This document shows positions 38,793 through 59,341 of a DNA stretch of 64,000 bases, piece after piece. The stretch comes from Muribaculaceae bacterium (lineage in GTDB: Bacteria; Bacteroidota; Bacteroidia; Bacteroidales; Muribaculaceae), in NCBI GenBank assembly GCA_022484565.1, contig JAKVKZ010000001.1:1-64000 (forward strand). The letters are read 5' to 3'. The position numbers were made by a program, and so were the translations under genes. Every line of letters starts with the position of its first letter. Positions within the stretch are counted from its first letter, which is position 1. The notes under the pieces were generated by a model. The model searched no databases and was not told the DNA's origin. It was given only the letters and a program-made list of their open reading frames with translations.

Positions 38793-38836
38793 ACAAACAA
38801 AGGGCGCAACCATTGAGGCTGCGCCATTTGTTTGTT
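38793..38836. terminator. Bidirectional terminator between nuoN and the convergent DUF3108 gene
   Basis: ACAAACAAAgGGCGCAaCC attga GGcTGCGCCaTTTGTTTGT. Confidence 0.75.
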
Positions 38837-38859
38837 ACTGGCCATTGACCGAGTAAATA

Positions 38860-39690
38860 CTATTTAACCTGTGAAGTAACGGGATTGGCAACACCCTTGA
38901 AAGAGCGGAGAAGAACCTTAGCTACACCTATCTTCAAGTACATGTCGAGGCGGATAGGAAGCTTGTTGGCATCGTCGGTAACATAAAAAGTAACTACCTC
39001 TTTCATCTTGTTGTCGCGCTTCTGCCAGAGTGTGAAAACATGGCAACGATATTTCAAATCATTGTCGGCCTCTACCTTGGAAATACCACCATAAGTAAGA
39101 GTTTGTGATTCCACACGTTTGCCTGTGGCAACAGGTAAATATATTTTTTGTCCAACTTTGAAAGTTGACATATTGAATGAGCGGGCATAAGCGATGATGC
39201 TCAGCATGTCGTAAATATTGCGGTTGCTATTGAAAGCTGTGTTTGTTACCTGTCCCTTACGTACACGGCGCTGCTTGATATGGCATTTTTTGTTGCTGTA
39301 GGTGAACCAAGCCTGGTCAAGAGTGTAAGTGCCGTCCTCAAAAGAACCTTTGCGGTAATATAAAGGGATGAGATTTGTGGCAATAATGCTTGTAATAGTG
39401 TCACGCATCTTAAAAACCACATCAGCCGTACTGTTTGTGCGGCATGACAAGTCCATCCGATAGGCTGGTGTTCCATGCCATGATGCACTGCGGGTTGACA
39501 TTTGGGCGTTACCGCCTTTCATCCATATAAGTTTCCACTTATAATAGAGATTATAAGAAATGACTTCTCCTGCTTTGGAAGCGGTGTTATTGGCAGCTTC
39601 ACTTTGGGCACTTACCAAAAGTGATGTGCCGAAGATGCTCAGTCCAGCGAGGAGCATCACCAAATAAGTTTTGAATAATTTTTTAGTCAT
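38860..39690 (-). CDS. DUF3108-like exported protein
   Basis: Signal peptide; GEVISYNLYYKWKLIWMKGGNAQMST; ATGKRVESQTLTYGG; FYVTDDANKLPIRLDMYLKIGVAKVLL. Confidence 0.75.
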   Translation of the reverse strand: MTKKLFKTYLVMLLAGLSIFGTSLLVSAQSEAANNTASKAGEVISYNLYYKWKLIWMKGGNAQMSTRSASWHGTPAYRMDLSCRTNSTADVVFKMRDTITSIIATNLIPLYYRKGSFEDGTYTLDQAWFTYSNKKCHIKQRRVRKGQVTNTAFNSNRNIYDMLSIIAYARSFNMSTFKVGQKIYLPVATGKRVESQTLTYGGISKVEADNDLKYRCHVFTLWQKRDNKMKEVVTFYVTDDANKLPIRLDMYLKIGVAKVLLRSFKGVANPVTSQVK

Positions 39691-39789
39691 AGCGCTGTAA
39701 AAACTTTGTTTGAAAATTAGACTTGAAGAGACGAAATAGGTTTATTTGGCAAGGAAGAAAATGCGAATAAAACTTACCTTTGACAGAAA

Positions 39790-39818
39790 TCCCCAAATCC
39801 TGTGGCGGAATTTGGGGA
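39790..39818 (-). terminator. Possible terminator downstream of the PfkB kinase gene
   Basis: TCCCCAAAT/ATTTGGGGA 9-bp stem; T-rich on the minus-strand 3' side. Confidence 0.45.
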
Positions 39819-39870
39819 CTATGAATTGGAAATAAAAATATTTTTAAATAGACTTATTGATTGAAAGTTG

Positions 39871-40761
39871 TCAGCCGAGTTCATGTTTCAGTTCCTCAGG
39901 CAGGAGAGGCATAGCCCCTCTTTGGGTGCAGACAAATGCTGAAACCTTGCGAGCAAATTCATGAGCTGCCGCAACAGATTTGCCTGCTATCGTGGCGGCA
40001 ACATAGGCGGCAGTGAAAGAATCACCAGCACCAACAGTGTCGATGACTTCCACGTGCTTGCGGTCGAAATATGAAGTGACGTTATCAGGTAAGAACACAT
40101 AACTTCCCTCGTCGCCCCATGTGGCGAGTACTTGACGAAGATTGTACTTTTTGAGTAGCGCACGGCTAATATCCCAAACACGGTCGCTGTGCATGTCAAC
40201 AAGATTCCACAAAATCATAATTTCCTCTTCGTTTGTCTTCAGAACGTTGCACCGCTTCAGGGAATCATCGAGCAAATCTTGCGAGTAGAAATTGCTTCGT
40301 ATGTTAACATCGAAAATTTTAAGTGCATCATCAGGCACAAGGTCGAGGAATTTGGCAATTGTAGCACTTGACCTTTCGCTGCGTTGCGCTAAAGTTCCCC
40401 AGCAAACAGCAGCAGTGTTACGGGCAATCTCCTCCATATCTGCGGTGAAAGGAATATTGTCCCATGAGGAATTGTCGGTGAATTCATAAGTCGCACTACA
40501 GGCATCGGTAAGACGAACCTGCACCTCACTCGTCGGAAAATGAACAGTAGGAGTGACGTGGTGGAGACCTTTTTTGTCAAGCTCATCCACAATCTGTTTT
40601 CCCAAATCGTCATCACCCACGGCACTGACCACATAAGCATCGCAGCCAAGCTGTGAAGCATGAAAAGCGAAATTTGCAGGTGCACCACCGAGTTTTTTGC
40701 CGCCAGAGAATACATCCCAAAGTACTTCGCCAAGACCAACTACATATTTACCCTTTCTCAT
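39871..40761 (-). CDS. PfkB-family carbohydrate kinase (fructokinase-like)
   Basis: VGLGEVLWDVFSGGKKLGGAPANFAFHASQLGCDAYVVSAVGDDDLG; DTVGAGDSFTAAYVAA. Confidence 0.9.
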   Translation of the reverse strand: MRKGKYVVGLGEVLWDVFSGGKKLGGAPANFAFHASQLGCDAYVVSAVGDDDLGKQIVDELDKKGLHHVTPTVHFPTSEVQVRLTDACSATYEFTDNSSWDNIPFTADMEEIARNTAAVCWGTLAQRSERSSATIAKFLDLVPDDALKIFDVNIRSNFYSQDLLDDSLKRCNVLKTNEEEIMILWNLVDMHSDRVWDISRALLKKYNLRQVLATWGDEGSYVFLPDNVTSYFDRKHVEVIDTVGAGDSFTAAYVAATIAGKSVAAAHEFARKVSAFVCTQRGAMPLLPEELKHELG

Positions 40762-40816
40762 TATGATTTTAGATTTTATAAATTAATGCGAATATAGTCA
40801 AATATCCGTATCGTTG

Positions 40817-41728
40817 TCATTCACTGGTGAAAGATATTTTACCGCCCTTTTTGCAACCGAAAGTCAATCCGCTGACAGGCATTATAAAGCTATTGTCGGG
40901 AACATCATTTGATTTTTGGAGTGTGAAACTTCCTTTCATATTGATTTTCTTCAATTTGCCGTCGGTAATCTGTGAAAATAGCGTGTAAGAATACGTTTGG
41001 GGCTTTAGGTCTTCAAGATAATCAGCGCCCATGAAGCAGCCTTTGTAAATTTCTATGTGTCCTGATGATTCGGATTTGCAGGTGATTTTCCAATCGGGGG
41101 AAAGACGCAATGCAATATGTGCGCCATTTGGAGCATTTAAATCAATTTCGGAGAAACTGCCTAAATCAGCGTATTCAGTAACTTCCGACTTATTTCCAGC
41201 ACTATCGTAAGCATAAATTGTCATGTAGCCGTCACCTTCACCGCCCTTGACGGAAGAAATGTTCTTTAAGTCAGGTAAACATGGACTGCACATTAGGTCA
41301 CGGTAATGAATGGCGTTGAATACATCAAGAATCTGTATTGAGCCATTATCCAAAACCATGGCGATTACAGGATTGACATCCTGACCAATGTCAGCGATGG
41401 TGAGATTTTTGCATTTTCCTTGAAGACCTTGCAATTCATAGGGAGGTTTGCCATCAAAATTTTCGAAATCCATACTTTTAGTGAACTCCCGCATTTTATC
41501 TTCGTTGAAAGTTATGAAAACTTTGCCTCCCTTGACGAATGCCGTGAAATTCATGTTGAACCCGCTTTCATCGCCGGCAGCACTTTTATAGGTTTTAGAG
41601 ATTGTTGTCGATGTGTCGGCAGCTGATGCTTGTGATTTCTGTACCGTTTCATCCTTTTTCACTGAAGATGAACAGGAGAAGAAAATCAGGCAAAATAGAA
41701 TTGCAAAGAAAGGAATAAAATTTTTCAT
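40817..41728 (-). CDS. Secreted lipoprotein, paralog family A member 1
   Basis: Lipobox FCLIFFSCSSS; shares LTIADIGQDVNPVIAM with the next gene. Confidence 0.75.
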   Translation of the reverse strand: MKNFIPFFAILFCLIFFSCSSSVKKDETVQKSQASAADTSTTISKTYKSAAGDESGFNMNFTAFVKGGKVFITFNEDKMREFTKSMDFENFDGKPPYELQGLQGKCKNLTIADIGQDVNPVIAMVLDNGSIQILDVFNAIHYRDLMCSPCLPDLKNISSVKGGEGDGYMTIYAYDSAGNKSEVTEYADLGSFSEIDLNAPNGAHIALRLSPDWKITCKSESSGHIEIYKGCFMGADYLEDLKPQTYSYTLFSQITDGKLKKINMKGSFTLQKSNDVPDNSFIMPVSGLTFGCKKGGKISFTSE

Positions 41729-41755
41729 AATCTGATGTGTGTAATATTAAAATGC

Positions 41756-42643
41756 TTAATTATAAACAGTATAAACAATTACTGGCTTTCCCAAAGCTGA
41801 CGAGAATGGAAATCCAGTTATGGGTGTGAAAATTGCCTGATTGCAATTTTCATCAGTTATTACCAAAGAAAAAGTGCCTGGGATGTTGATTTTGGAGGTG
41901 GTTGAGCCGATGGTGCTGCTGGTCAAGACATAAGAATATATTGGGTTGGTCTTTGAAAAGTTAGTGTCGGAGAAACGTCCGGAATAAATAGCGCCGTTAA
42001 CTTTACATGATAACTTCCAATCGCGGGAGAAACTCAGAACAAGATTTCCATTGCGGCTTGAAGCCGGATAAAAGCTTCCAATGCCGTTGTACTCCTTAAT
42101 CTCATATTTTTTGCCCATCTCATCGTGGCCGAAAATGGTGACGTATCCACCAATGGCGTTGCCATCCTCGTCAACATCACCCACGCTGCCCGCATCAAGC
42201 CATAGCACGTCGCTCACGCCTTTCAAAGGCAAGCTGCAACGTAAATCGCCAGTAGAGAGGGCATTGAAAAAGTCGAGAATCTGTACAGAACCGTCGGTTA
42301 ACGACATGGCAATTACTGGGTTTACATCCTGCCCGATGTCAGCAATCGTCAAACTGGCACAATCACCTGCAAGACCTTGCACTTCGATAGGCATACGGCC
42401 AGTGAAAGGATATTTTTTGCCAATATTACGGCAGAAAGCCTCGGCTTTATCTTCATCGTAACGAATAAAGACTTTACCATAAGAAATGTAGGCAGTGATA
42501 GGGGAGTTGAAGTCGCCCACACTTTCAATCGGTCTGTAAGTGAAAGATTTGGAAATATGCGTTATGTCACTCTCCTGCGCAAGGCAATAAAAGGTCGCGG
42601 AGCACAAGAACATCAGTAACATGATGCTTACCAACTTTTTCAT
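41756..42643 (-). CDS. Secreted protein, paralog family A member 2
   Basis: Signal peptide; same LTIADIGQDVNPVIAM block; DVDEDGN loop. Confidence 0.75.
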   Translation of the reverse strand: MKKLVSIMLLMFLCSATFYCLAQESDITHISKSFTYRPIESVGDFNSPITAYISYGKVFIRYDEDKAEAFCRNIGKKYPFTGRMPIEVQGLAGDCASLTIADIGQDVNPVIAMSLTDGSVQILDFFNALSTGDLRCSLPLKGVSDVLWLDAGSVGDVDEDGNAIGGYVTIFGHDEMGKKYEIKEYNGIGSFYPASSRNGNLVLSFSRDWKLSCKVNGAIYSGRFSDTNFSKTNPIYSYVLTSSTIGSTTSKINIPGTFSLVITDENCNQAIFTPITGFPFSSALGKPVIVYTVYN

Positions 42644-42662
42644 GAACCAAATATGTTTAGAC

Positions 42663-43292
42663 TTATTGTTCTATGAAAATCTTGAAAGTGGAATATGGCT
42701 TCCAATTAAGATTGCTGATATCGACAATTTTTTTTGGAATGCCATTGATAAATGATTCAGCCTCTTCAGCAGTGTAAATCTTACCACCTTCGCCTATATA
42801 AGATAATGTAGGAGCGGCATCGTCGCTATCATTAACCGATTTCTTCACGAACCATTCCCCATTATCTCTACTCTTGACGATTTTGTGATATTCTGTACAA
42901 TATGTTCCAGCTTCAGGGCTACCGCTGCTGATTACCACATTGGCCTGAATGGCGATGGTATATCCAGGCTTTTCTATTCCCACAACATCAGTCGTGTCAC
43001 CAAAAGTGATGACGCAGCCATAGTGTGCAGCCTTGTTCTGGAGCAATAGCTCATCCAGCCCGTCGCCATCAATATCGTAAAATGCAAATTCATCGGGCAT
43101 AATGTCAATGCTGTCGTTGATGACCTCACTATCCCAAAGTTTTTCCACTTTGTTGGCGTCGATAGTAGAAACAGGCACACCGGCAGCAGAAGTAACAGAA
43201 TCTTCATGCGATGCCTTGCTTTTCGCAACACCACTGCATCCGGCGAGCGACAAGCAGCATAAAATTGAAAGGGATAATGCGATTTTTTTCAT
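42663..43292 (-). CDS. Secreted lipoprotein, paralog family B, short form
   Basis: Lipobox CCLSLAGCSG; FAFYDIDGDGLDELLLQNKAAHYGCVITFG aligns to the C-terminal half of the next two genes. Confidence 0.75.
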   Translation of the reverse strand: MKKIALSLSILCCLSLAGCSGVAKSKASHEDSVTSAAGVPVSTIDANKVEKLWDSEVINDSIDIMPDEFAFYDIDGDGLDELLLQNKAAHYGCVITFGDTTDVVGIEKPGYTIAIQANVVISSGSPEAGTYCTEYHKIVKSRDNGEWFVKKSVNDSDDAAPTLSYIGEGGKIYTAEEAESFINGIPKKIVDISNLNWKPYSTFKIFIEQ

Positions 43293-43301
43293 TATAATAA
43301 G

Positions 43302-44489
43302 TTATTGGTAAGCAAAAGTTGCAAGTTTGCTGAACGGCATCCAGTTAAGACGGGATAGGTCAACAGACTTTTTGGGCATTTTGGCAATAATGGCCTTGGC
43401 CTCGCTAACGATTTTGGCGTTATGGCTTGTGTCGCCGTTGTATTCGGTCACTCTCTTGCCAGTGGAGTCGGTGAACGACAGCGTGCTGCAAGAGGCGATT
43501 ACCTCATTGCACTCAAATTGGTGATATTCGGTGTAAACCGCGCCACCAGAGCCAGCCGCGCTACTAATTGTGACGAAGTTGCCGAAAATTGCGATGCGAT
43601 TCTTGGAATCCTCCCTTGCCACAATGCGGACATTGGCGCCATAAGAAAGAACGCAGCCGAGCGAGTTTTTAGTATCACGGAGGAAAATTTCCTCATCGCC
43701 ATCGCCGTCGATGTCGATAAAGGCGAATTGCTCAGGCTTTGTGTTCTCTTCTTCAGCAATGCTGTCGGCCCACAGATTTTCAAGACCGGCTTCAGCCCAG
43801 TAGTTGCGGCAATCGTTGCGACGGAGAAGCTTGTGGTGCTCGCTTTCAGTGCCATCGCAGGTGAAGGCGTTGCCGTTCCACCGAAGGTACATTGTGGAAT
43901 TTTCCATTGCATCGCCTTCTCCAGCACTTTGCTCGAACTTGATGTCCTTGCCGGTGCGAGGCAAAGTCACAACGCAAGTCAATCCAAATGGAATCTTATC
44001 GGCAGGAGGAGTTGGCAAAGGCGTCATAGTGTGAGTGGTGGCATCGAAGTCGAAGAACATCAACACGTTGAAATTACCGCTGTCGGCATCGAAAAGGTCA
44101 CCTTCCTCAAAATCAGACATGTAAATGGCTATCAATTTGTGCCCGTCGGCTTTGTTCCAATAGCACATCTGCAATATGTTGTCAACTCCTGTTTCGGGCA
44201 TAGTGCTTGAAAGGTAGCCATTTTTCACATCGAGAATGTATTGCGACAGAAGTTTGGACTTGCCGGTATTCATGCGCAGGATGGTGTTATTGACGGAATA
44301 GCCGGGATAGACCTTTGCAAAGTCCTTGAAGAAATCGGTGATGTTGGGATTGGGGGCATTGACTTTTATGGTTTTTGCCTTCCACACCTTAATCAAATCG
44401 CTAACACAATAATTCTTTACTGCCGCCTTTGCTGAAAGAGTCAGAAGGCAGATTGAAAGAATAAGAAATATGTTGATTATACGTTTCAT
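43302..44489 (-). CDS. Secreted protein, paralog family B, full length
   Basis: Signal peptide from Met 44489; FAFIDIDGDGDEEIFLRDTKNSLGCVLSYG; IPFGLTCVVTLPRTGKDIKFEQ. Confidence 0.75.
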   Translation of the reverse strand: MKRIINIFLILSICLLTLSAKAAVKNYCVSDLIKVWKAKTIKVNAPNPNITDFFKDFAKVYPGYSVNNTILRMNTGKSKLLSQYILDVKNGYLSSTMPETGVDNILQMCYWNKADGHKLIAIYMSDFEEGDLFDADSGNFNVLMFFDFDATTHTMTPLPTPPADKIPFGLTCVVTLPRTGKDIKFEQSAGEGDAMENSTMYLRWNGNAFTCDGTESEHHKLLRRNDCRNYWAEAGLENLWADSIAEEENTKPEQFAFIDIDGDGDEEIFLRDTKNSLGCVLSYGANVRIVAREDSKNRIAIFGNFVTISSAAGSGGAVYTEYHQFECNEVIASCSTLSFTDSTGKRVTEYNGDTSHNAKIVSEAKAIIAKMPKKSVDLSRLNWMPFSKLATFAYQ

Positions 44490-44511
44490 TGCTTGAAATT
44501 TGTGAAAATTA

Positions 44512-45684
44512 CTATTTACGGACAAAAGATTTCAGTTTGCTGAAAGGCATCCAGCCGAGATTGTCAATGTCGATAGGCGTTTTCGGAACTTTGGCGATAA
44601 TGGCTTTAGCCTCCTTTGCCGCCTTGGAATTTTGATTTGTTTCGCCATTGTATTCGGTAATCCTATTGTCGTTTTCATCGTTATATTCCATGATGTCGCA
44701 ACTGGCGACTACCTTGCTGTTCTCAATCTTGTGATATTCGGTGTTGACCGCACCGCCAGTGCCAGCCGAGGAGGTGACAGTGACGAAACCATTGTAAATG
44801 CTGATGCTGCTCTTGAAGCCTTGCTGCGCAATGACGTGGAAGTAAGAATTGATGATGCAGCCAAGACGGTTGGGAGTGTCGCGCAAGAATAACTCCTCAT
44901 CGCTATCGCCGTCGATGTCGATGAAGGCAAATTCTGAAGGCTTGGCATTCTTTTCCTTAGCTATGGTGTTTGCCCAAAAGCCTGCAATGCCAAAATTAGC
45001 AATAGTGCTGCGGATGTCGTCGCGACGGAGCTGCTTGTGGCGCTGCGACACAACTCCATTGGTGGAGAAACTGTTGCCATTCCAATGCAGGAACACGGTG
45101 GCAATGTCAGTGTTGCTGCCAGTGCCAGCTTTCTGCTCGAATTTTATGTCCTTGCCGGTACTTGGCAAAGCCACTTGACAGTTTAGCCCGAATGGAATGC
45201 CGTCGGCCGGCGGAGTTGCCAATGGCGTCATGGTGCGGGAGGCAGCATCGTAGTCGTAGAACATCAATGCTTTAAAAAAGCCTGCATCGGGGTCGTCGGC
45301 TGCACCTTCGGCAAAATCGGTGAGATACACAGCAATCAGCTTATTTCCGTTGTTCTTGTTCCAATAGCACATCTGCAATTGCTTGACGCTACTTTCGGAA
45401 CTGGAAATAAAGCCATTCTTCGCGTCGAGGGAGAAGGACTTAAGCACCTTGGACTTGCCAGTGCTAAGGCGGGTAAGAGTAGGAGAGGTGGCATTGCCGG
45501 GATAAGCAGTGGCAAAAGCCTTGAAAAAGCCAGCGATATCGGGTGTAGTGGCATTGACCTTGATGGTGCGAGCCTTCCAAGCCTTAATCACGTCGCTCAC
45601 CGAATAATTCTTGGCTGTCGTCTTGGCCGAGGCGGGCAAAATGACGAGCGCAAGAAGAATTAATATGTTGATTAATCGTTTCAT
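44512..45684 (-). CDS. Secreted protein, paralog family B, full length
   Basis: FAFIDIDGDSDEELFLRDTPNRLGCIINSY; IPFGLNCQVALPSTGKDIKFEQ. Confidence 0.75.
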   Translation of the reverse strand: MKRLINILILLALVILPASAKTTAKNYSVSDVIKAWKARTIKVNATTPDIAGFFKAFATAYPGNATSPTLTRLSTGKSKVLKSFSLDAKNGFISSSESSVKQLQMCYWNKNNGNKLIAVYLTDFAEGAADDPDAGFFKALMFYDYDAASRTMTPLATPPADGIPFGLNCQVALPSTGKDIKFEQKAGTGSNTDIATVFLHWNGNSFSTNGVVSQRHKQLRRDDIRSTIANFGIAGFWANTIAKEKNAKPSEFAFIDIDGDSDEELFLRDTPNRLGCIINSYFHVIAQQGFKSSISIYNGFVTVTSSAGTGGAVNTEYHKIENSKVVASCDIMEYNDENDNRITEYNGETNQNSKAAKEAKAIIAKVPKTPIDIDNLGWMPFSKLKSFVRK

Positions 45685-46418
45685 TTCTCGTCGGGTTGGG
45701 TGATTTCGGCCTCTATGTTATATTTCAGATATTTGTTCCAAAGAGCCTTGGCATTGTCGCGGAAAGCCAGAGGAGCAGCGTTGAAAGCCTTGTCGAAAGT
45801 GAATTCACCGCCTTGATTGCTGCCGTCAACAAATATCTGATTGCGTCCGCGCATGGCGAACTTGTCGGCACCTTCGTGCATAATCAGTTTCATCGGGATA
45901 GCACTGACATCACCGTGAGCTGCAAGTTGATACATCACCCAGACTTCGGAAATGCCATCGCCGTCGAGGTCGGTAACGCTAAAGGCACCACGAACGAAAT
46001 TGGCTTGTACCGACACTTCGCAATCGCTTGCCAAATCGTAGATTTTCCAGTCCTGCACGGGCTTGCCGTCGGTGATGATGTAGTGATAGACGAAGAGTTC
46101 GGCATCCATACAATCAGGGTTGTCATGCTTTATCCTTGGACTGTTCCATGTGCCTGTCTCAGTCATCACCAAAAGGTTTTCACCGGCTTTGTCGGTCCAT
46201 TTCACAGCTTTGAAAAGTTTGCCTTCAGTCTTTTTGACTTTTGCACCATCGGGCAACTCGTTTTCGGACATTTCGGTGATGGACGGAGGAGAGACGGATT
46301 TTGCCGCAACCGTTGATGCCGTGCTTTTGGAAGGAGCAGTGGTGGCAACGTTTTTTGAGGCTTTGACGCATCCCATTGAAAGGATGGCCACTAAAATTAA
46401 AACGAAAGATTTTTTCAT
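45681..46418 (-). CDS. Secreted lipoprotein, paralog family C (M949_RS01915-like, tentative)
   Basis: GENLLVMTETGTW..AELFVYHYI..WKIYDLASDCEVSVQANFVRGAFSVTDLDGDGISEVWVMYQ. Confidence 0.7.
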   Translation of the reverse strand: MKKSFVLILVAILSMGCVKASKNVATTAPSKSTASTVAAKSVSPPSITEMSENELPDGAKVKKTEGKLFKAVKWTDKAGENLLVMTETGTWNSPRIKHDNPDCMDAELFVYHYIITDGKPVQDWKIYDLASDCEVSVQANFVRGAFSVTDLDGDGISEVWVMYQLAAHGDVSAIPMKLIMHEGADKFAMRGRNQIFVDGSNQGGEFTFDKAFNAAPLAFRDNAKALWNKYLKYNIEAEITQPDEK

Positions 46419-46478
46419 AGAAATAGTATTTATTATTGAGAATAGAATTATGATTGAAAGTTTAATGTTGCAAATTAA

Positions 46479-47156
46479 TTATTTGGGAACTGGATAATGA
46501 ATATTTTTGTTCCATAAAGCGGCTGCATGAGTGCGGAATGCCTTTGGAGCGCTGAGCATTGCAGCGTCCATGGTGTAGTTGCCTCCGTCATATTTTGCTT
46601 TGCCATTTTCATCTGTGCCAATCCATGCTTTTGTGGTACCGCGAAGTGCATATTTTTTTGTACCCTCGTGCATGTTAATCTTCATTTCGGCTGGGCCAAT
46701 ATCACCACGGCACATTTTGCGATAGATTATCCAAACTTCAGCAATACCATTATTATTCAGGTCAGTTATGCTTAATGCGTCAGGCAAAAACTTCGCAAAG
46801 AGGTCGCAACTGCAATCAGCAACGTAATCGTAGATGCACCAAGTTTTTGTGGCGGAATTGCCGGATAGAATATAGTGATAGGCAAAAAGTTCCGCATCGT
46901 TGTTGTCCTTGTCGGAGTGTGGAAATTTGTCGTTTTTTTCGATGCCAGTCTCGCTCATGACCACAAGATTCTTACCAAGGCGGTCAATCCATGAGAATGC
47001 GCTGACGAATTTACCTTCAAAGCTAATTCCATCGGGAATGTCAGCTGAATTGACGGCATGTGCAGCAATGCTGCGATGGGACTTGGCAGCGGCATCAGAA
47101 TTTGTGATGCAGATTGAAAACATCACAAGAAATATCAGACAAAAAGTTTTTTTCAT
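46479..47156 (-). CDS. Secreted protein, paralog family C (M949_RS01915-like, tentative)
   Basis: GKNLVVMSETGIEKN..AELFAYHYIL..WCIYDYVADCSCDLFAKFLPDALSITDLNNNGIAEVWIIYR. Start at internal Met 47156 preferred. Confidence 0.7.
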   Translation of the reverse strand: MKKTFCLIFLVMFSICITNSDAAAKSHRSIAAHAVNSADIPDGISFEGKFVSAFSWIDRLGKNLVVMSETGIEKNDKFPHSDKDNNDAELFAYHYILSGNSATKTWCIYDYVADCSCDLFAKFLPDALSITDLNNNGIAEVWIIYRKMCRGDIGPAEMKINMHEGTKKYALRGTTKAWIGTDENGKAKYDGGNYTMDAAMLSAPKAFRTHAAALWNKNIHYPVPK

Positions 47157-47258
47157 GGGCTTATGATAATTCTTTGGTGTAAAAATACTAACTATAAATG
47201 AAGTAAGCAAATTTTTGGCGGCCTAAATGAGGACAGTGGATATAAGTAATTTCGATTA

Positions 47259-47318
47259 AAACCGAAAAATAATATAAGATTTTTCGGTTTCATACGAAAA
47301 ATATCATGAAATTTTTCG
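47259..47318. repeat. Two palindromes with 32-bp period upstream of the secreted paralog cluster
   Basis: AAACCGAAAAAT (47259-47270)/ATTTTTCGGTTT (47279-47290) and CGAAAAAT (47295-47302)/ATTTTTCG (47311-47318), both with 8-nt loops. Confidence 0.8.
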
Positions 47319-47556
47319 GTGTTAGCGGGAATGAGGGCGGAAAAACGAAAGCGCTGGATGCTGTTGGATGAAGAAGTCTATTTTGGGAAAGTTCAAGATG
47401 CAAATAGAATTTTTTGATTTTTGAAGATTATTCATCGGTACAAAAAGGTAAAAGATAGGAAGGTTTGAAAGGGGAAAAATGGGTTGACGCGACAGTGATA
47501 AAATTAGGATAAATAAAAAATTGCGCCTAAATGCTTGCAGATTCAAAGCAATACAT

Positions 47557-47564
47557 TAACTTTG
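47557..47564 (+). promoter_or_regulatory. Bacteroidetes -7 promoter box for the 47.6 kb gene
   Basis: TAACTTTG about 80 bp upstream of the ATG; leader hairpin ATGCCGgaccgctCGGCAT at 47584-47602. Confidence 0.55.
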
Positions 47565-47643
47565 TACGATGAAAAGCTAAAACATGCCGGACCGCTCGGC
47601 ATAAGAGACAACGAAATATAAAACAACTAATTATCACAATAAC

Positions 47644-48543
47644 ATGAGAAGATTATTACTTTTCTTGGCAACTTGTTTGCCTCTGTTGGCAATAGCACAG
47701 GGAGTAACGATTACGAGCACAGAGCCTCTACTTGCAGACTTTGGCAGTGCTGCGTATTACCCTGTATTGAGCGCTGACGGACAAAAATTGCTGTTCACAG
47801 GCGAGAATCAGCAAGGTCTTAACCTTTACAATTTCAGTGACCAGAAAGTTACTGAAATAACCACTGCGGAACGTGCCGGATTCGGGGCACAGTTTGGTAA
47901 AGACGGGCGAATCTACTACACGACGCAGAAACGTGTGGATGGACTTTGCTACCGTAGCGCAATGAGCTATGACGCAGTCACAAAATCAACTTCCACAATA
48001 GTAGCCGACCAGCGCATATTGCAAATGCCATGTATGGTGAATGGCGGAGCCGTTGTGAAATCGACAAAAGGCACAATCACAACTTCGGGTGTGAAGGACA
48101 AAGGGACCTACGTCTATACCAAAGGCTCGAAAGTGATTGTAGTGAAGAACGGCGTGGAGAAATCTTATTCACCAGTTGAATCGTATGCAGGTTATCTTTG
48201 GGCTTCATTATCACCTGATGGACAGAAAGTTATGTTCTTTGCAGCAGGTAAAGGCATCGTAGTGATGGACCTTAACGGCAATGTGCTGGCGCAACTTGGC
48301 AAATATGAAATACCTTGCTGGCTTGGCAACAATTATATTGTAGCCCAGAATTCCAAAGATGACGGTTATACTTACACATCATCGCAAATAGTACTTATGA
48401 AGGCCGACGGAAGCAATTTCAAGGCACTCACCGCTCCTGAATCGATGACTATGCAGCCAACTACTGATGCAGCAGGCGACAAGATTGTCTATACAAATGC
48501 TGAAGGCCAGCTTTATCTTATGAAAGTAAACATTAACGAATAA
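47644..48543 (+). CDS. Exported TolB/PD40-type beta-propeller protein
   Basis: Signal peptide; repeated YPVLSADGQKLLFTGE, ASLSPDGQKVMFFAAGKGIVVMDLNG. Confidence 0.75.
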   Translation: MRRLLLFLATCLPLLAIAQGVTITSTEPLLADFGSAAYYPVLSADGQKLLFTGENQQGLNLYNFSDQKVTEITTAERAGFGAQFGKDGRIYYTTQKRVDGLCYRSAMSYDAVTKSTSTIVADQRILQMPCMVNGGAVVKSTKGTITTSGVKDKGTYVYTKGSKVIVVKNGVEKSYSPVESYAGYLWASLSPDGQKVMFFAAGKGIVVMDLNGNVLAQLGKYEIPCWLGNNYIVAQNSKDDGYTYTSSQIVLMKADGSNFKALTAPESMTMQPTTDAAGDKIVYTNAEGQLYLMKVNINE

Positions 48544-48554
48544 CAGTCCCGAAA

Positions 48555-50951
48555 ATGAAAAAGATATTATTGACCATTGCTACAGCAATGATGGCTATCG
48601 GTGCTTATGCCGCCCAGCCAAGCGATGTACACATATATATTAATCCGGGACATGGCGGTCACGACAGTGACGACCGTAATGTGGTGATAGAACCATTCTC
48701 ATCGGGCGACCCAAATGGATATTGGGAATCGAATTCAAACCTTGCCAAAGGCTTGGATATGCGCGATATACTTCAGTCACGCGGATTTAAAGTGACAATG
48801 TCACGCGTAACCAACACTTCCGATGACGACCTTGGGCTTGAGACAATAGGCTATCTTGCCAACAACAGCGGTGCCGATATTTTCCTCGCTATCCACAGCA
48901 ACGCAACTGGTAATGCAAGCAGGGTGAATTTTCCTATAGGCTTGTATAGAGGATACTCGGGCAAACCTCAAGTTGCCAAATCGGATGTGCTTGCCAATAT
49001 GCTACAGCCATATTTGCTGAGCAACCAGGCAACAGTGTGGACAAGTACTACGCCAAGCACATACGGTGACTGGACATTCTATCCTGATTGGGGAACTCAG
49101 GGGCTTGGCGTGCTTCGCGTGCTCACCATCCCGGGAATGCTTTCAGAAGGTTCGTTCCACGATTACATACCAGAGACCTACAGGCTAATGAACAATGATT
49201 TCTGCTGGCTTGAAGCATGGCACTTCGTGAAGATGATTGACCAATATTTCAGTATTCCTAAATACACAGTAGGTAATCTTGCCGGTTGCATCACCGATTC
49301 CCGCATACTTCGCGATAAGGATTATATAATGTACGGGCGCGATAAACTCAATCCTCTTATGGGAGCAAAAGTTACTCTTCAAAACTCCGATAGCACAGTA
49401 GTGGCAACATATACCACCGACTCGCTTTATAATGGCTATTACATTTTCAAAATGATGACGCCAGGCAAATATCGTATTAAAGTGAATGCAAACGACCATT
49501 ATAACGTAGCCCAAGATGTGCAGATTGTTGCTGACACCACAATGTATGCCAACATCGGCATGAACCGCATCCGTAACACAGCACCTGAGGTGGTAAGTTA
49601 CTCACCAGTGTGGAACGACGGCGATAGCGCAGTGCTTTGCAACATACCGATTACCATGACATTCAATTGGGATATGGATACTGAATCGGCAGAGAAGGCG
49701 TTTACTATCACTCCATCCGTGAAAGGTACATTCACATGGGAAGATACAAATTATAAGATGGTATTTACTCCTGACGAACCGTATCAGGCCAACACCAAAT
49801 ACACTGTCACACTTGCCAAGAGTGCAATGCACGGAGGCGGAACTCCGATGAGAAATGACGTGACTTTCAGTTTCACAACCGACAGTCGCAGATTCCTCGA
49901 TGTGATAGGCCAATTCCCTAACGATGGCGAGAATGTGCATTATTCGGGTGCAGCAATTGATATTCGTTGCGACAGGCCAATCAATGCCACTCCGATATTC
50001 AGTCAGATAACGTTGACTGATTCAGCCGGCAATGAAGTGGCGTTCAACAAACGAGGAATGACTAATAACAAGACGACCGGCAGTTACGGGTTCATTCGTC
50101 TGCCGATACTGAGCAAACTCACTGTTGGCGCTACCTACACACTGTCCTTTGACGGTGCAATTGCAGATTATAACGGCATCAAACTTGAAAATCCGATTGT
50201 GGCAAAATTCAAAGCCATTGATGCCAGTGCTGCCAAGAACGGCACAGTGGTGGCTAACTTCGAGGATGCAACACAATACACTCTAAACACCAGCGAGAGC
50301 ACTAATTACAAATCCGCCGTTGTCTCCAACAACACTACCTACAAACTCTTCGATTCAAAGAGCATGCTTCTCAACTACACTTTCACCGGCACATCGGACG
50401 GCGTGATAAGTTTCAATACTTCCGCTCCTACAGAGACGTTTACTTCAAATGACTATCTTGGAGCGCACATCTATGGCGATGTGAACGGAAACAAAGTTGT
50501 GGCAGAATTGAGTGCTGACGGAGAAAAGGTATTAGTCCCTATTTGCGATGTCACATTCGATGGCTGGAAATATGTCACAGCACCTCTTACTTCGCTTACT
50601 GCCAATAAGGCATACAAGCTAACAGGAATAAGGCTTATACAGACAGCCTCGCCAATGAGCACTACTGGCAAGATATATTTCGACAACTTTATCAAGTCGA
50701 ACACTGGCGGTGTGAACAAGGTGGCTGTGTCGGGACTCAAAGTATTCCCAAGTCCAGCGGCTTCTGTAATAAGTGTGACTGCTGATAAGAAAGTGGAAGG
50801 TTTGCAACTTATAGGCAACAACGGCGTAGTCGTTGCACAGTCTGACGCATCAAGCATTAATGTCGAGGGAGTTGCCAATGGTGCATATCTTCTCCGCATT
50901 AAGGTAGCCGACGGCTTTGCAATCAGCAAAGTTGTAGTGGCTCATAAGTAA
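48555..50951 (+). CDS. N-acetylmuramoyl-L-alanine amidase (Amidase_3) with Ig-like and C-terminal sorting-like domains
   Basis: IYINPGHGGHDSDDRNV, FLAIHSNA; Ig-like EVVSYSPVWNDGDSAVLCNIPITMTFNWDMD; C-terminus LKVFPSPAASVISVTADKKVEGLQLIGNNG..GAYLLRIKV resembling T9SS type A. Confidence 0.82.
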   Translation: MKKILLTIATAMMAIGAYAAQPSDVHIYINPGHGGHDSDDRNVVIEPFSSGDPNGYWESNSNLAKGLDMRDILQSRGFKVTMSRVTNTSDDDLGLETIGYLANNSGADIFLAIHSNATGNASRVNFPIGLYRGYSGKPQVAKSDVLANMLQPYLLSNQATVWTSTTPSTYGDWTFYPDWGTQGLGVLRVLTIPGMLSEGSFHDYIPETYRLMNNDFCWLEAWHFVKMIDQYFSIPKYTVGNLAGCITDSRILRDKDYIMYGRDKLNPLMGAKVTLQNSDSTVVATYTTDSLYNGYYIFKMMTPGKYRIKVNANDHYNVAQDVQIVADTTMYANIGMNRIRNTAPEVVSYSPVWNDGDSAVLCNIPITMTFNWDMDTESAEKAFTITPSVKGTFTWEDTNYKMVFTPDEPYQANTKYTVTLAKSAMHGGGTPMRNDVTFSFTTDSRRFLDVIGQFPNDGENVHYSGAAIDIRCDRPINATPIFSQITLTDSAGNEVAFNKRGMTNNKTTGSYGFIRLPILSKLTVGATYTLSFDGAIADYNGIKLENPIVAKFKAIDASAAKNGTVVANFEDATQYTLNTSESTNYKSAVVSNNTTYKLFDSKSMLLNYTFTGTSDGVISFNTSAPTETFTSNDYLGAHIYGDVNGNKVVAELSADGEKVLVPICDVTFDGWKYVTAPLTSLTANKAYKLTGIRLIQTASPMSTTGKIYFDNFIKSNTGGVNKVAVSGLKVFPSPAASVISVTADKKVEGLQLIGNNGVVVAQSDASSINVEGVANGAYLLRIKVADGFAISKVVVAHK

Positions 50952-56397: not shown

Positions 56398-57855
56398 ATG
56401 AATACTATTAATTGTTTCATACCCTTCGTTGATGAGCAGCAGGCGCGAGCCACTGTTGATGGGTTGAAATCGAGCAAATTTATTTCAAAAATCTTTCTTC
56501 TTGCCGATGAAAACGCAAAAGGAGGAATAGAGGGATGTGAAGTACTGAAAATTGATGCCCTCACCTCAACCGCAACTATCAAGCAGATTGCCGCTAATGC
56601 CGGCAACGGATATGTGCTGCTTTACTGCAAATATGATACATTGCGGTTAGGTTATCTTGCCATTGAGCGAATGTTGAGGATATTGGACGATAGTCAGTCG
56701 GGCATGGTTTATGCCGACCATTATAAGGTTACTAATGGCAAACAAGTGAAAGCTCCTTTGATTGATTATCAGGAGGGCAGTCTGCGCGATGAGTTTGATT
56801 TCGGGTCCTTGATGCTTTTTGGTGCGGATTCATTCCGCAAGGCGGCTTCAATGGTGAAACAGAATTATGGTTTTGCCGGATTATATGATTTCCGCCTGAA
56901 ATTGTCGCAGTTTGCACATATTACCCATGTCGACGAGTATCTATATACTGATGTGGAACTTGATACCCGCAGCAGTGGTGAAAAGGTTTTTGATTATGTT
57001 GATCCGAAGAACCGTGGACGTCAGATAGAACTTGAAAAAGCGGTTACGGAACATTTGAAAGAGATAGGAGCGTACCTTGAGCCGAAATTTGAAAAAGTGC
57101 AATTCGATGAAAATGATTTTGAATGTGAAATGTCGGTAATAATACCTGTTCTTAACAGAGTACGTACAATCCGCGATGCTTTGAAGTCGGCACTTTCACA
57201 GAAATGCGATTTCAAATTCAATGTGATAGTAATCGACAATCATTCAACTGATGGCACTACTGAGGCAATTGATGAATTCAAGTGCGACAATCTTATCCAT
57301 ATAATACCTGACCGTGATGACCTCGGCATAGGCGGTTGCTGGAATTTTGCCGCCCATAATAAGCATTGCGGTAAATTCTTCATCGGTCTTGACAGCGATG
57401 ATGTGTTCAGCAGTGAGGAAACTCTATCCAAGATGGTGAAAGCCTTCTACGAGCAGAATTGTGCAATGGTTTCGGGCACTTATATGGTGACTGACTTCAA
57501 TATGAAGATGATTGCTCCAGGCGTAATTGACCATCGTGAATTGGCTCCCGAAAATGGCCGGAATAATTTGCTCCGGGTGAATGGCATCGGTGCGCCACGT
57601 GCGTTCTACACGCCATTGTTCCGCAAGGTAAATTTGCCAAACACCTGCTATGGAGAGGACTATGCAGTGGGATTGATGATGTCGCGCCATTACTTGATAG
57701 GACGTATATATGATGTGCTGACTTATGGCCGTCGTTGGGAAGACAATTCTGATGCCAATCTTGACATCGTCAAGGAAAATGCCAACAACCTTTATAAGGA
57801 CCGCACACGTACTTGGGAACTCCGGGCACGCATTAAAATGAACAAATCAAATTAA
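56398..57855 (+). CDS. Double-domain GT2 glycosyltransferase, copy 1
   Basis: C-terminal domain SVIIPVLNRVRTIRDALKSAL..VIDNHSTDGTTEAI..LDSDDVF; N-terminal half resembles a degenerate GT-A domain. Confidence 0.82.
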   Translation: MNTINCFIPFVDEQQARATVDGLKSSKFISKIFLLADENAKGGIEGCEVLKIDALTSTATIKQIAANAGNGYVLLYCKYDTLRLGYLAIERMLRILDDSQSGMVYADHYKVTNGKQVKAPLIDYQEGSLRDEFDFGSLMLFGADSFRKAASMVKQNYGFAGLYDFRLKLSQFAHITHVDEYLYTDVELDTRSSGEKVFDYVDPKNRGRQIELEKAVTEHLKEIGAYLEPKFEKVQFDENDFECEMSVIIPVLNRVRTIRDALKSALSQKCDFKFNVIVIDNHSTDGTTEAIDEFKCDNLIHIIPDRDDLGIGGCWNFAAHNKHCGKFFIGLDSDDVFSSEETLSKMVKAFYEQNCAMVSGTYMVTDFNMKMIAPGVIDHRELAPENGRNNLLRVNGIGAPRAFYTPLFRKVNLPNTCYGEDYAVGLMMSRHYLIGRIYDVLTYGRRWEDNSDANLDIVKENANNLYKDRTRTWELRARIKMNKSN

Positions 57856-57883
57856 TTATAAATAAATTAAACGTAAAAAAGCT

Positions 57884-59341
57884 ATGAAATCAATTAATTG
57901 TTTCATTCCGTACGCTAACGCCGAACAGGCTAAGTCAACACTTACAGCACTTAAAGCTAATAAGCTGGTAAACAAAATCTTTTTGCTTGCGACAGGTGAT
58001 GCTAAAGATGCACCTGAAGGCTACGAGGTGATTAAAATTAAAACCCTCACAGCCACCTCCACAATGAAATCAATAGCAGAACATGCCGATGCTGATTTTG
58101 TTCTGCTTTTCACTAAATATGTCACTCTAAAGTTTGGACCATACGCTATCGACCGCTTTGTGAAACTCGCTTGCGATTCACAGTCGGGAATGCTCTATGC
58201 CGACCACTATAATGTCAGCGACGATAAAGTGGAGAAAGCTCCAGTGATTGACTATCAGCAGGGCAGTCTGCGTGACGATTTTGATTTTGGTTCAGTGCTT
58301 TTCTTCTGCGCAGAATGCTTCAAGAAAGCTGCCGCTGCTATGAAGGCCGACTATGAATTTGCAGGTCTTTATGATATCCGCCTCAAACTTTCGCAATTTG
58401 CAGCGCTTACACATATCAATGAATACCTTTATAGCGATGTGGAACTCGACACCCGCAAGAGTGGAGAGAAACTTTTTGATTATGTTGACCCTAAGAACCG
58501 CGGACGTCAGATAGAAATGGAACAGGCCGTTACCGAGCATCTTAAGGAAGTCGGTGGTTATCTTGCTCCGAAATTCACTAAGATAGAATTCAACAAGGGT
58601 AATTTCGACTATGAGGCAACAGTCATCATCCCTGTTCGTAACCGTATCCGTGTAATTCGCGATGCCATCAAGTCGGTGCTCAACCAAAAGACTGATTTCA
58701 AGTTCAATCTTATGGTGGTTGATAACTTCTCAACCGATGGCACACGTGATGCGATAGACGAATTCAAGGACGACCCACGTCTTATCCACATAATCGCCGA
58801 CTACTATGATATGGGTGTAGGTGGTTATTGGAATCTTGCGGCAAATCACGAGAAAGCCGGCAAGTTCATCATTCAGCTTGATTCCGATGATGTCTATGCC
58901 GACGAGAATACTTTATCAACAATGGTCAATGCTTTTTACGAGCAAAACTGCGCAATGGTTGTCGGTACTTACATGATGACTGACATCAATCTGCACATGA
59001 TTGCCCCTGGCATTATCGACCATAAGGAATGGACACCTGAAAACGGCCGCAACAATGCACTCCGCATCAATGGACTTGGCGCACCGCGTGCTTTCTACAC
59101 TCCAGTGCTCCGTGAAGTAAAGGTGCCTAACACCAGCTATGGTGAAGATTATGCGCTAGGCTTGAATATTTCACGTAATTATCAGATTGGACGTGTTTAT
59201 AAGCCTGTCTATCTGGTACGTCGTTGGGACGACAATAGCGATGCCGACGTTGACATTGTGAAGATGAACACCAACAACACATATAAAGACCGCATCCGCA
59301 CTTGGGAACTCCAGGCGCGAATAGCTATGAACAATAAATAG
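57884..59341 (+). CDS. Double-domain GT2 glycosyltransferase, copy 2
   Basis: Collinear with copy 1, identical blocks such as NRGRQIE, FYEQNCAMV and NGRNN; TVIIPVRNRIRVIRDAIKSVL, LDSDDVY. Confidence 0.82.
   Translation: MKSINCFIPYANAEQAKSTLTALKANKLVNKIFLLATGDAKDAPEGYEVIKIKTLTATSTMKSIAEHADADFVLLFTKYVTLKFGPYAIDRFVKLACDSQSGMLYADHYNVSDDKVEKAPVIDYQQGSLRDDFDFGSVLFFCAECFKKAAAAMKADYEFAGLYDIRLKLSQFAALTHINEYLYSDVELDTRKSGEKLFDYVDPKNRGRQIEMEQAVTEHLKEVGGYLAPKFTKIEFNKGNFDYEATVIIPVRNRIRVIRDAIKSVLNQKTDFKFNLMVVDNFSTDGTRDAIDEFKDDPRLIHIIADYYDMGVGGYWNLAANHEKAGKFIIQLDSDDVYADENTLSTMVNAFYEQNCAMVVGTYMMTDINLHMIAPGIIDHKEWTPENGRNNALRINGLGAPRAFYTPVLREVKVPNTSYGEDYALGLNISRNYQIGRVYKPVYLVRRWDDNSDADVDIVKMNTNNTYKDRIRTWELQARIAMNNK

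Follow-up and report, generated by a model that had tools for sequence, protein, structure and literature searches.

A minus-strand cluster of seven exported, locally duplicated proteins in a Muribaculaceae bacterium that looks like a lineage-specific accessory operon

Organization of the cluster and its putative expression signals

The analysed window, the first 64,000 nucleotides of contig JAKVKZ010000001.1 of a Muribaculaceae bacterium, carries seven minus-strand genes at positions 40817-47156, all of which were recovered as open reading frames at the places originally assigned to them. These genes, which fall into three families (A, B and C), and the adjoining features are as follows.

39791..39817, minus strand: hairpin CCCCAAAT-N11-ATTTGGGG after pfkB, a possible transcript end, read from the sequence
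39871..40761, minus strand: pfkB-family sugar kinase gene (PF00294, 1.1e-38), possibly co-transcribed
40817..41728, minus strand: A1, probable lipoprotein, 303 aa, with an FFSC motif conserved in homologs
41756..42643, minus strand: A2, exported protein, 295 aa (E 1.2e-45 against A1)
42663..43292, minus strand: B3, lipoprotein with the B-C domain alone, 209 aa (lipobox LAGC; positions 227-392 of the B model HMM)
43302..44489, minus strand: B1, exported two-domain protein, 395 aa, 55% identity to B2
44512..45684, minus strand: B2, exported two-domain protein (B-N plus B-C), 390 aa, overlapping the C1 stop by ATGA
45681..46418, minus strand: C1, a 245-aa member of the M949_RS01915 family with a weak lipobox, SMGC (NF046077, 174.6 bits; AlphaFold2 model)
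46479..47156, minus strand: C2, which opens the putative operon and encodes a 225-aa member of the M949_RS01915 family with a signal peptide (NF046077, 179.1 bits; sister of C1)
47180..47211, minus strand: candidate Bacteroidetes-type promoter TTTG-N20-TATTTTTA upstream of C2, from a motif search
47261..47288, no strand: perfect palindrome ACCGAAAAAT-N8-ATTTTTCGGT, 28 bp, candidate operator
47293..47320, no strand: second copy of the 28-bp palindrome, with 2 mismatches, its start lying 32 bp from that of the first copy

The intergenic distances from C2 downstream are 60, -4 (the ATGA overlap), 22, 9, 19 and 27 bp, in agreement with the first-pass annotation, which had described seven consecutive, closely spaced genes; its count of seven stood, but the operon may continue into pfkB (39871-40761), which starts 55 bp past A1. 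The close spacing and the ATGA overlap suggest a single transcript, perhaps extending through pfkB. Besides the hairpin after pfkB, a second terminator-like site was found at 38825-38803, past the DUF3108 gene.

The candidate promoter was the one match found on the minus strand of the interval 38800-47700, against 0.15 expected in shuffled sequences. The twin palindromes are expected 0.01 times in the window, and no further copy with up to three mismatches was found in 877 kb of host DNA. The lone promoter together with a twin palindrome unique in these 877 kb suggests one regulated operon, as far as this can be read from the sequence; the palindromes could act on either the cluster or the divergently oriented PD40 gene (47644). 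No regulator gene was located near them, and no RNA element was detected in the cluster region.

Inspection of the N-termini confirmed the earlier assignment of an export or lipoprotein signal to every one of the seven proteins. B3 carries a textbook lipobox and is a clear lipoprotein, A1 is a probable one and C1 a possible one, while the N-termini of A2, B1, B2 and C2 resemble those cleaved by signal peptidase I.

Three unrelated families of exported proteins

Sequence comparisons bore out the sorting of the seven proteins into three families, with two copies of A, three of B and two of C, as well as their origin by local duplication. A1 and A2 are 41% identical, B1 and B2 55%, and C1 and C2 42% (E 3.1e-47), whereas B3 aligns solely with the C-terminal half of B1 and B2 (34-35% identity; E 1e-74 against the B model). 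Chance is thus ruled out as the source of the within-family kinship: the E-values are about 1e-45 or lower for the A and C pairs, and 1e-74 for B3 against the B model. The earlier placement of B3 in family B was therefore correct as to membership, but the protein is half-length and consists only of the C-terminal domain.

No significant relation was found among A, B and C themselves. A single fold for all three, prompted by similar-looking loops (IADIGQDVNP in A, IDIDGDGDEE in B and TDLDGDGISE in C), was considered but found no support, as hhalign profile-profile probabilities reached only 0.8-7%. The B loop (DxDGDxDEE) and the C loop (DxDGDGxxE) are also reminiscent of FG-GAP/VCBS repeats (PF01839, PF13517), but only one motif is present per protein and every score fell below the Pfam gathering cut-off (11-16 bits for B against cut-offs of 22-27; the best score 16.4 against 26.9). 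An AlphaFold2 model of B, built from two sequences, had a pLDDT of 39 and was discarded as worthless.

Families A and B gave no family match in Pfam, NCBIfam, PHROGs or PADLOC, and none of the three families had a significant match among PDB sequences; A and B, which had not been recognised before, are marked out here as two unnamed exported families. A role in anti-phage defence was rejected on the lack of any PADLOC match.

In contrast, the earlier assignment of C to the M949_RS01915 family held firmly, as C1 and C2 matched the full NCBIfam model NF046077 at about three times its curated cut-off of 60 bits. Both retain the DxDxDG-type loop, W124, D128, C133 and K177 of that family; they differ from its other members in standing as two tandem copies within a larger operon, the C gene being elsewhere nearly always single and alone. 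Two cysteines are near-invariant in the family, C133 and the one in the alignment column of residue 167. In C1 the latter column, a cysteine in 47 of the 48 aligned rows, holds an alanine; C133, the likely disulfide partner of the residue-167 cysteine, is retained. The AlphaFold2 model of C1 (pLDDT 87.9) has an all-beta body and a helix at the C-terminus, and a fold search of this model against PDB and viral libraries returned no match at E<=0.001. Family C thus appears, as modelled, to have a confidently predicted fold with no clear solved relative.

Distribution in other genomes and history of the locus

None of the 148 genomes sampled from the host's family besides the host itself carried family C, and it was present in 25 other genomes of a phylum sample of 348 that includes the host. 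A further survey yielded 80 named loci, mainly in Flavobacterium, Mucilaginibacter, Chryseobacterium and chitinophagal relatives, nearly always with one C gene per locus beside unrelated housekeeping genes; searches of plasmids gave no match. In one Bacteroidales metagenome-assembled genome, Rhs-repeat-like genes directly follow the C-family gene (L104:9983-12908), a possible toxin context.

Outside the host, A was found only in three genomes of the same family (G028, G048 and G1041), each time as a lone lipoprotein gene, beside an unconfirmed, weak and partial match in G115 (E 1.5e-4), and in none of the 324 other genomes of a class-wide sample. B occurs in two further genera within that family and was likewise missing from the class-wide sample. 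Viral contigs held no relatives of A or B, and the genome_contigs set none of A. Both families were thus found only within the host's family, in a small number of genera, where they occur apart from each other.

The two domains of B also occur separately. B-N stands alone in host contig 28 and in genus g18, where a further domain, D, is joined to B-C; genome G001 has this fusion in the opposite order, and in the host D is encoded by a separate gene straight after the lone B-N gene. Family B is therefore modular, and these exported domains form a mix-and-match set. The individual loci are, in host contig 28, the lone B-N gene followed by a gene for a secreted protein with a D-homologous C-terminal part (L223:6343-7994), the D fusion to B-C in G161 (L210:7243-8622) and the reversed fusion in G001 (L209:2006-3658).

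The first-pass annotation had proposed that the three families are kept together and form a multi-component surface system, whose interacting subunits would be A, B and C. Signs of co-transcription and the sets of paralogs are what such a machine would lead one to expect, but neither the A-B-C order nor the co-occurrence of the families is conserved anywhere sampled: no A or B gene lies in flanks of up to 10 kb around the 80 C-family loci, A stands alone elsewhere and the B domains occur separately. Moreover, searches of the seven proteins with Pfam and NCBIfam revealed neither SusC/SusD nor T9SS sorting domains. Independent scatter of the families had been named at the outset as the outcome at odds with a conserved system; this was tested, and scatter is what was found. 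Because of this scatter the reading as a conserved system fails, and we consider a surface machine very improbable. The cluster instead has the appearance of an accessory operon particular to one lineage, encoding seven exported proteins of the envelope.

In the C-family tree, C1 and C2 are sisters (support 98/90) on long branches, nested among Flavobacterium and Dysgonomonas homologs. Given this nesting of the sister copies and the lack of C in the rest of the host's family, C was likely gained once horizontally and duplicated locally long ago; losses of C elsewhere in the family may be an alternative history. A recent transfer, judged by composition, was rejected: GC content and codon use are ordinary and give no clear sign of a recent change.

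The cluster lies between nuoN and the PD40 gene, at a site whose gene content varies. In two genomes (G004 and G032) the genes next after nuoN encode proteins of about 830-850 aa and precede the PD40 and Amidase_3 orthologs; at this post-nuoN place the window has the minus-strand genes from DUF3108 to C2. The PD40 propeller gene and the large Amidase_3/Big_5 gene (47644-50951) form a pair conserved in several genera of the family (L200-L204), adjoining the spot at which the gene after nuoN varies.

Possible roles of the operon

The two literature leads on the function of C disagree. In R. anatipestifer, a Tn4351 insertion in M949_RS01915 led to loss of the LPS ladder (PMC5294843). In Stenotrophomonas rhizophila, a C-family member, Tai5b, is encoded after the T6SS effector gene tae5; the C-terminal domain of Tae5 resembles the GspSA amidase domain, and Tai5b is predicted by AlphaFold3 to bind the effector, its assignment as an immunity protein being likewise a prediction (PMC13340143).

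Upkeep of surface polysaccharide, in which C would affect the display of O-antigen or capsule and A and B would help at the surface, draws on the first lead, on the NCBIfam name of the family and on glycosyltransferase genes in the window (56398-59341). The phenotype, however, comes from a single transposon mutant, for which no complemented derivative turned up in the text of that paper (PMC5294843), C homologs are surrounded by unrelated housekeeping genes, and the glycosyltransferase genes lie 9 kb off on the opposite strand. We regard this role as unlikely.

The second lead points to protection. Since a homolog of C is predicted to be the immunity protein for a peptidoglycan-amidase effector of the T6SS, we propose tentatively, at well short of even chances, that the operon encodes a protective array of exported binders. 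Its genes would share a single promoter and a dedicated operator made up of the twin palindromes. Their products, soluble or lipid-anchored, would bind ligands in the periplasm or at the outer membrane, and A, B and C proteins would act side by side and not as a single machine. They would guard the envelope by capturing cell-wall enzymes, whether incoming or of the host, C in the manner of Tai5b and A and B with other ligands; as in poly-immunity arrays, copies that diverged after duplication would broaden the set of ligands bound.

In favour of protection we counted the presence in some C proteins of YARHG, a domain hypothesised by its discoverers to bind peptidoglycan (PMC3355149), as at a locus where an N-terminal YARHG domain (PF13308, E 3e-16) is fused to a C-family domain (L083:3795-4748), a YARHG gene adjoining a B-C-domain gene in G161, and the orphan immunity arrays of co-oriented genes that are a known theme in Bacteroidales (PMC12247911). 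Against it we counted that among 95 neighbours of C homologs no domain typical of toxins or the T6SS is prominent or recurrent, that TssC was not found in the host genome (82.5% complete), that the role of Tai5b is predicted and the one C mutant has an LPS phenotype, and that nothing ties A to protection.

Compared with periplasmic T6SS immunity proteins (Tai/Tsi), the seven products share export, judged by inspection, but no effector gene lies beside the cluster, which is flanked by pfkB, DUF3108, PD40 and Amidase_3 genes, the latter two standing in conserved chromosomal order with nuoN. Likewise, Tai5b shares with C the NCBIfam family name and export, whereas the window genes adjoin no vgrG or amidase effector and the host has no detected TssC. 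The cluster resembles the AID/rAID orphan immunity arrays in its short, duplicated, co-oriented genes and lack of an effector, but the immunity proteins studied there carry SUKH domains (PMC12247911), and the proteins of the cluster are exported and match no such domain. Of the features that define rAID arrays, a tyrosine recombinase was absent from the annotated flanking genes, and inspection revealed no conserved motif common to the intergenic sequences of the cluster.

Alternatively, the operon may have no joint function, the three exported families sharing a transcript through chance insertion and duplication and performing separate minor envelope jobs as ligand-binding or structural lipoproteins. 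The independent distribution of the families, the ordinary base composition and the varied combinations of B domains elsewhere agree with this, whereas the close spacing, the ATGA overlap, the one promoter and the dedicated twin palindrome suggest co-regulation. We see this as a serious contender, though below even odds, and at least as likely as protection; the latter is put forward as the best explanation because it offers the most specific mechanism with support.

A bolder form of the protective reading, which we think doubtful and less probable than a role in polysaccharide upkeep, is that A and B are undescribed families of exported binders that together with C make up a regulated operon with no effector, protecting the periplasm against toxins aimed at peptidoglycan as the exported equivalent of the orphan-immunity arrays. 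If the protective reading is true, such arrays would extend to exported proteins. As to family C at large, which is widespread in Bacteroidota, its annotation as 'surface polysaccharide biosynthesis protein' is thinly based, since it goes back to one transposon mutant, and competes with a predicted immunity role; the M949_RS01915 family name should not be read as function.
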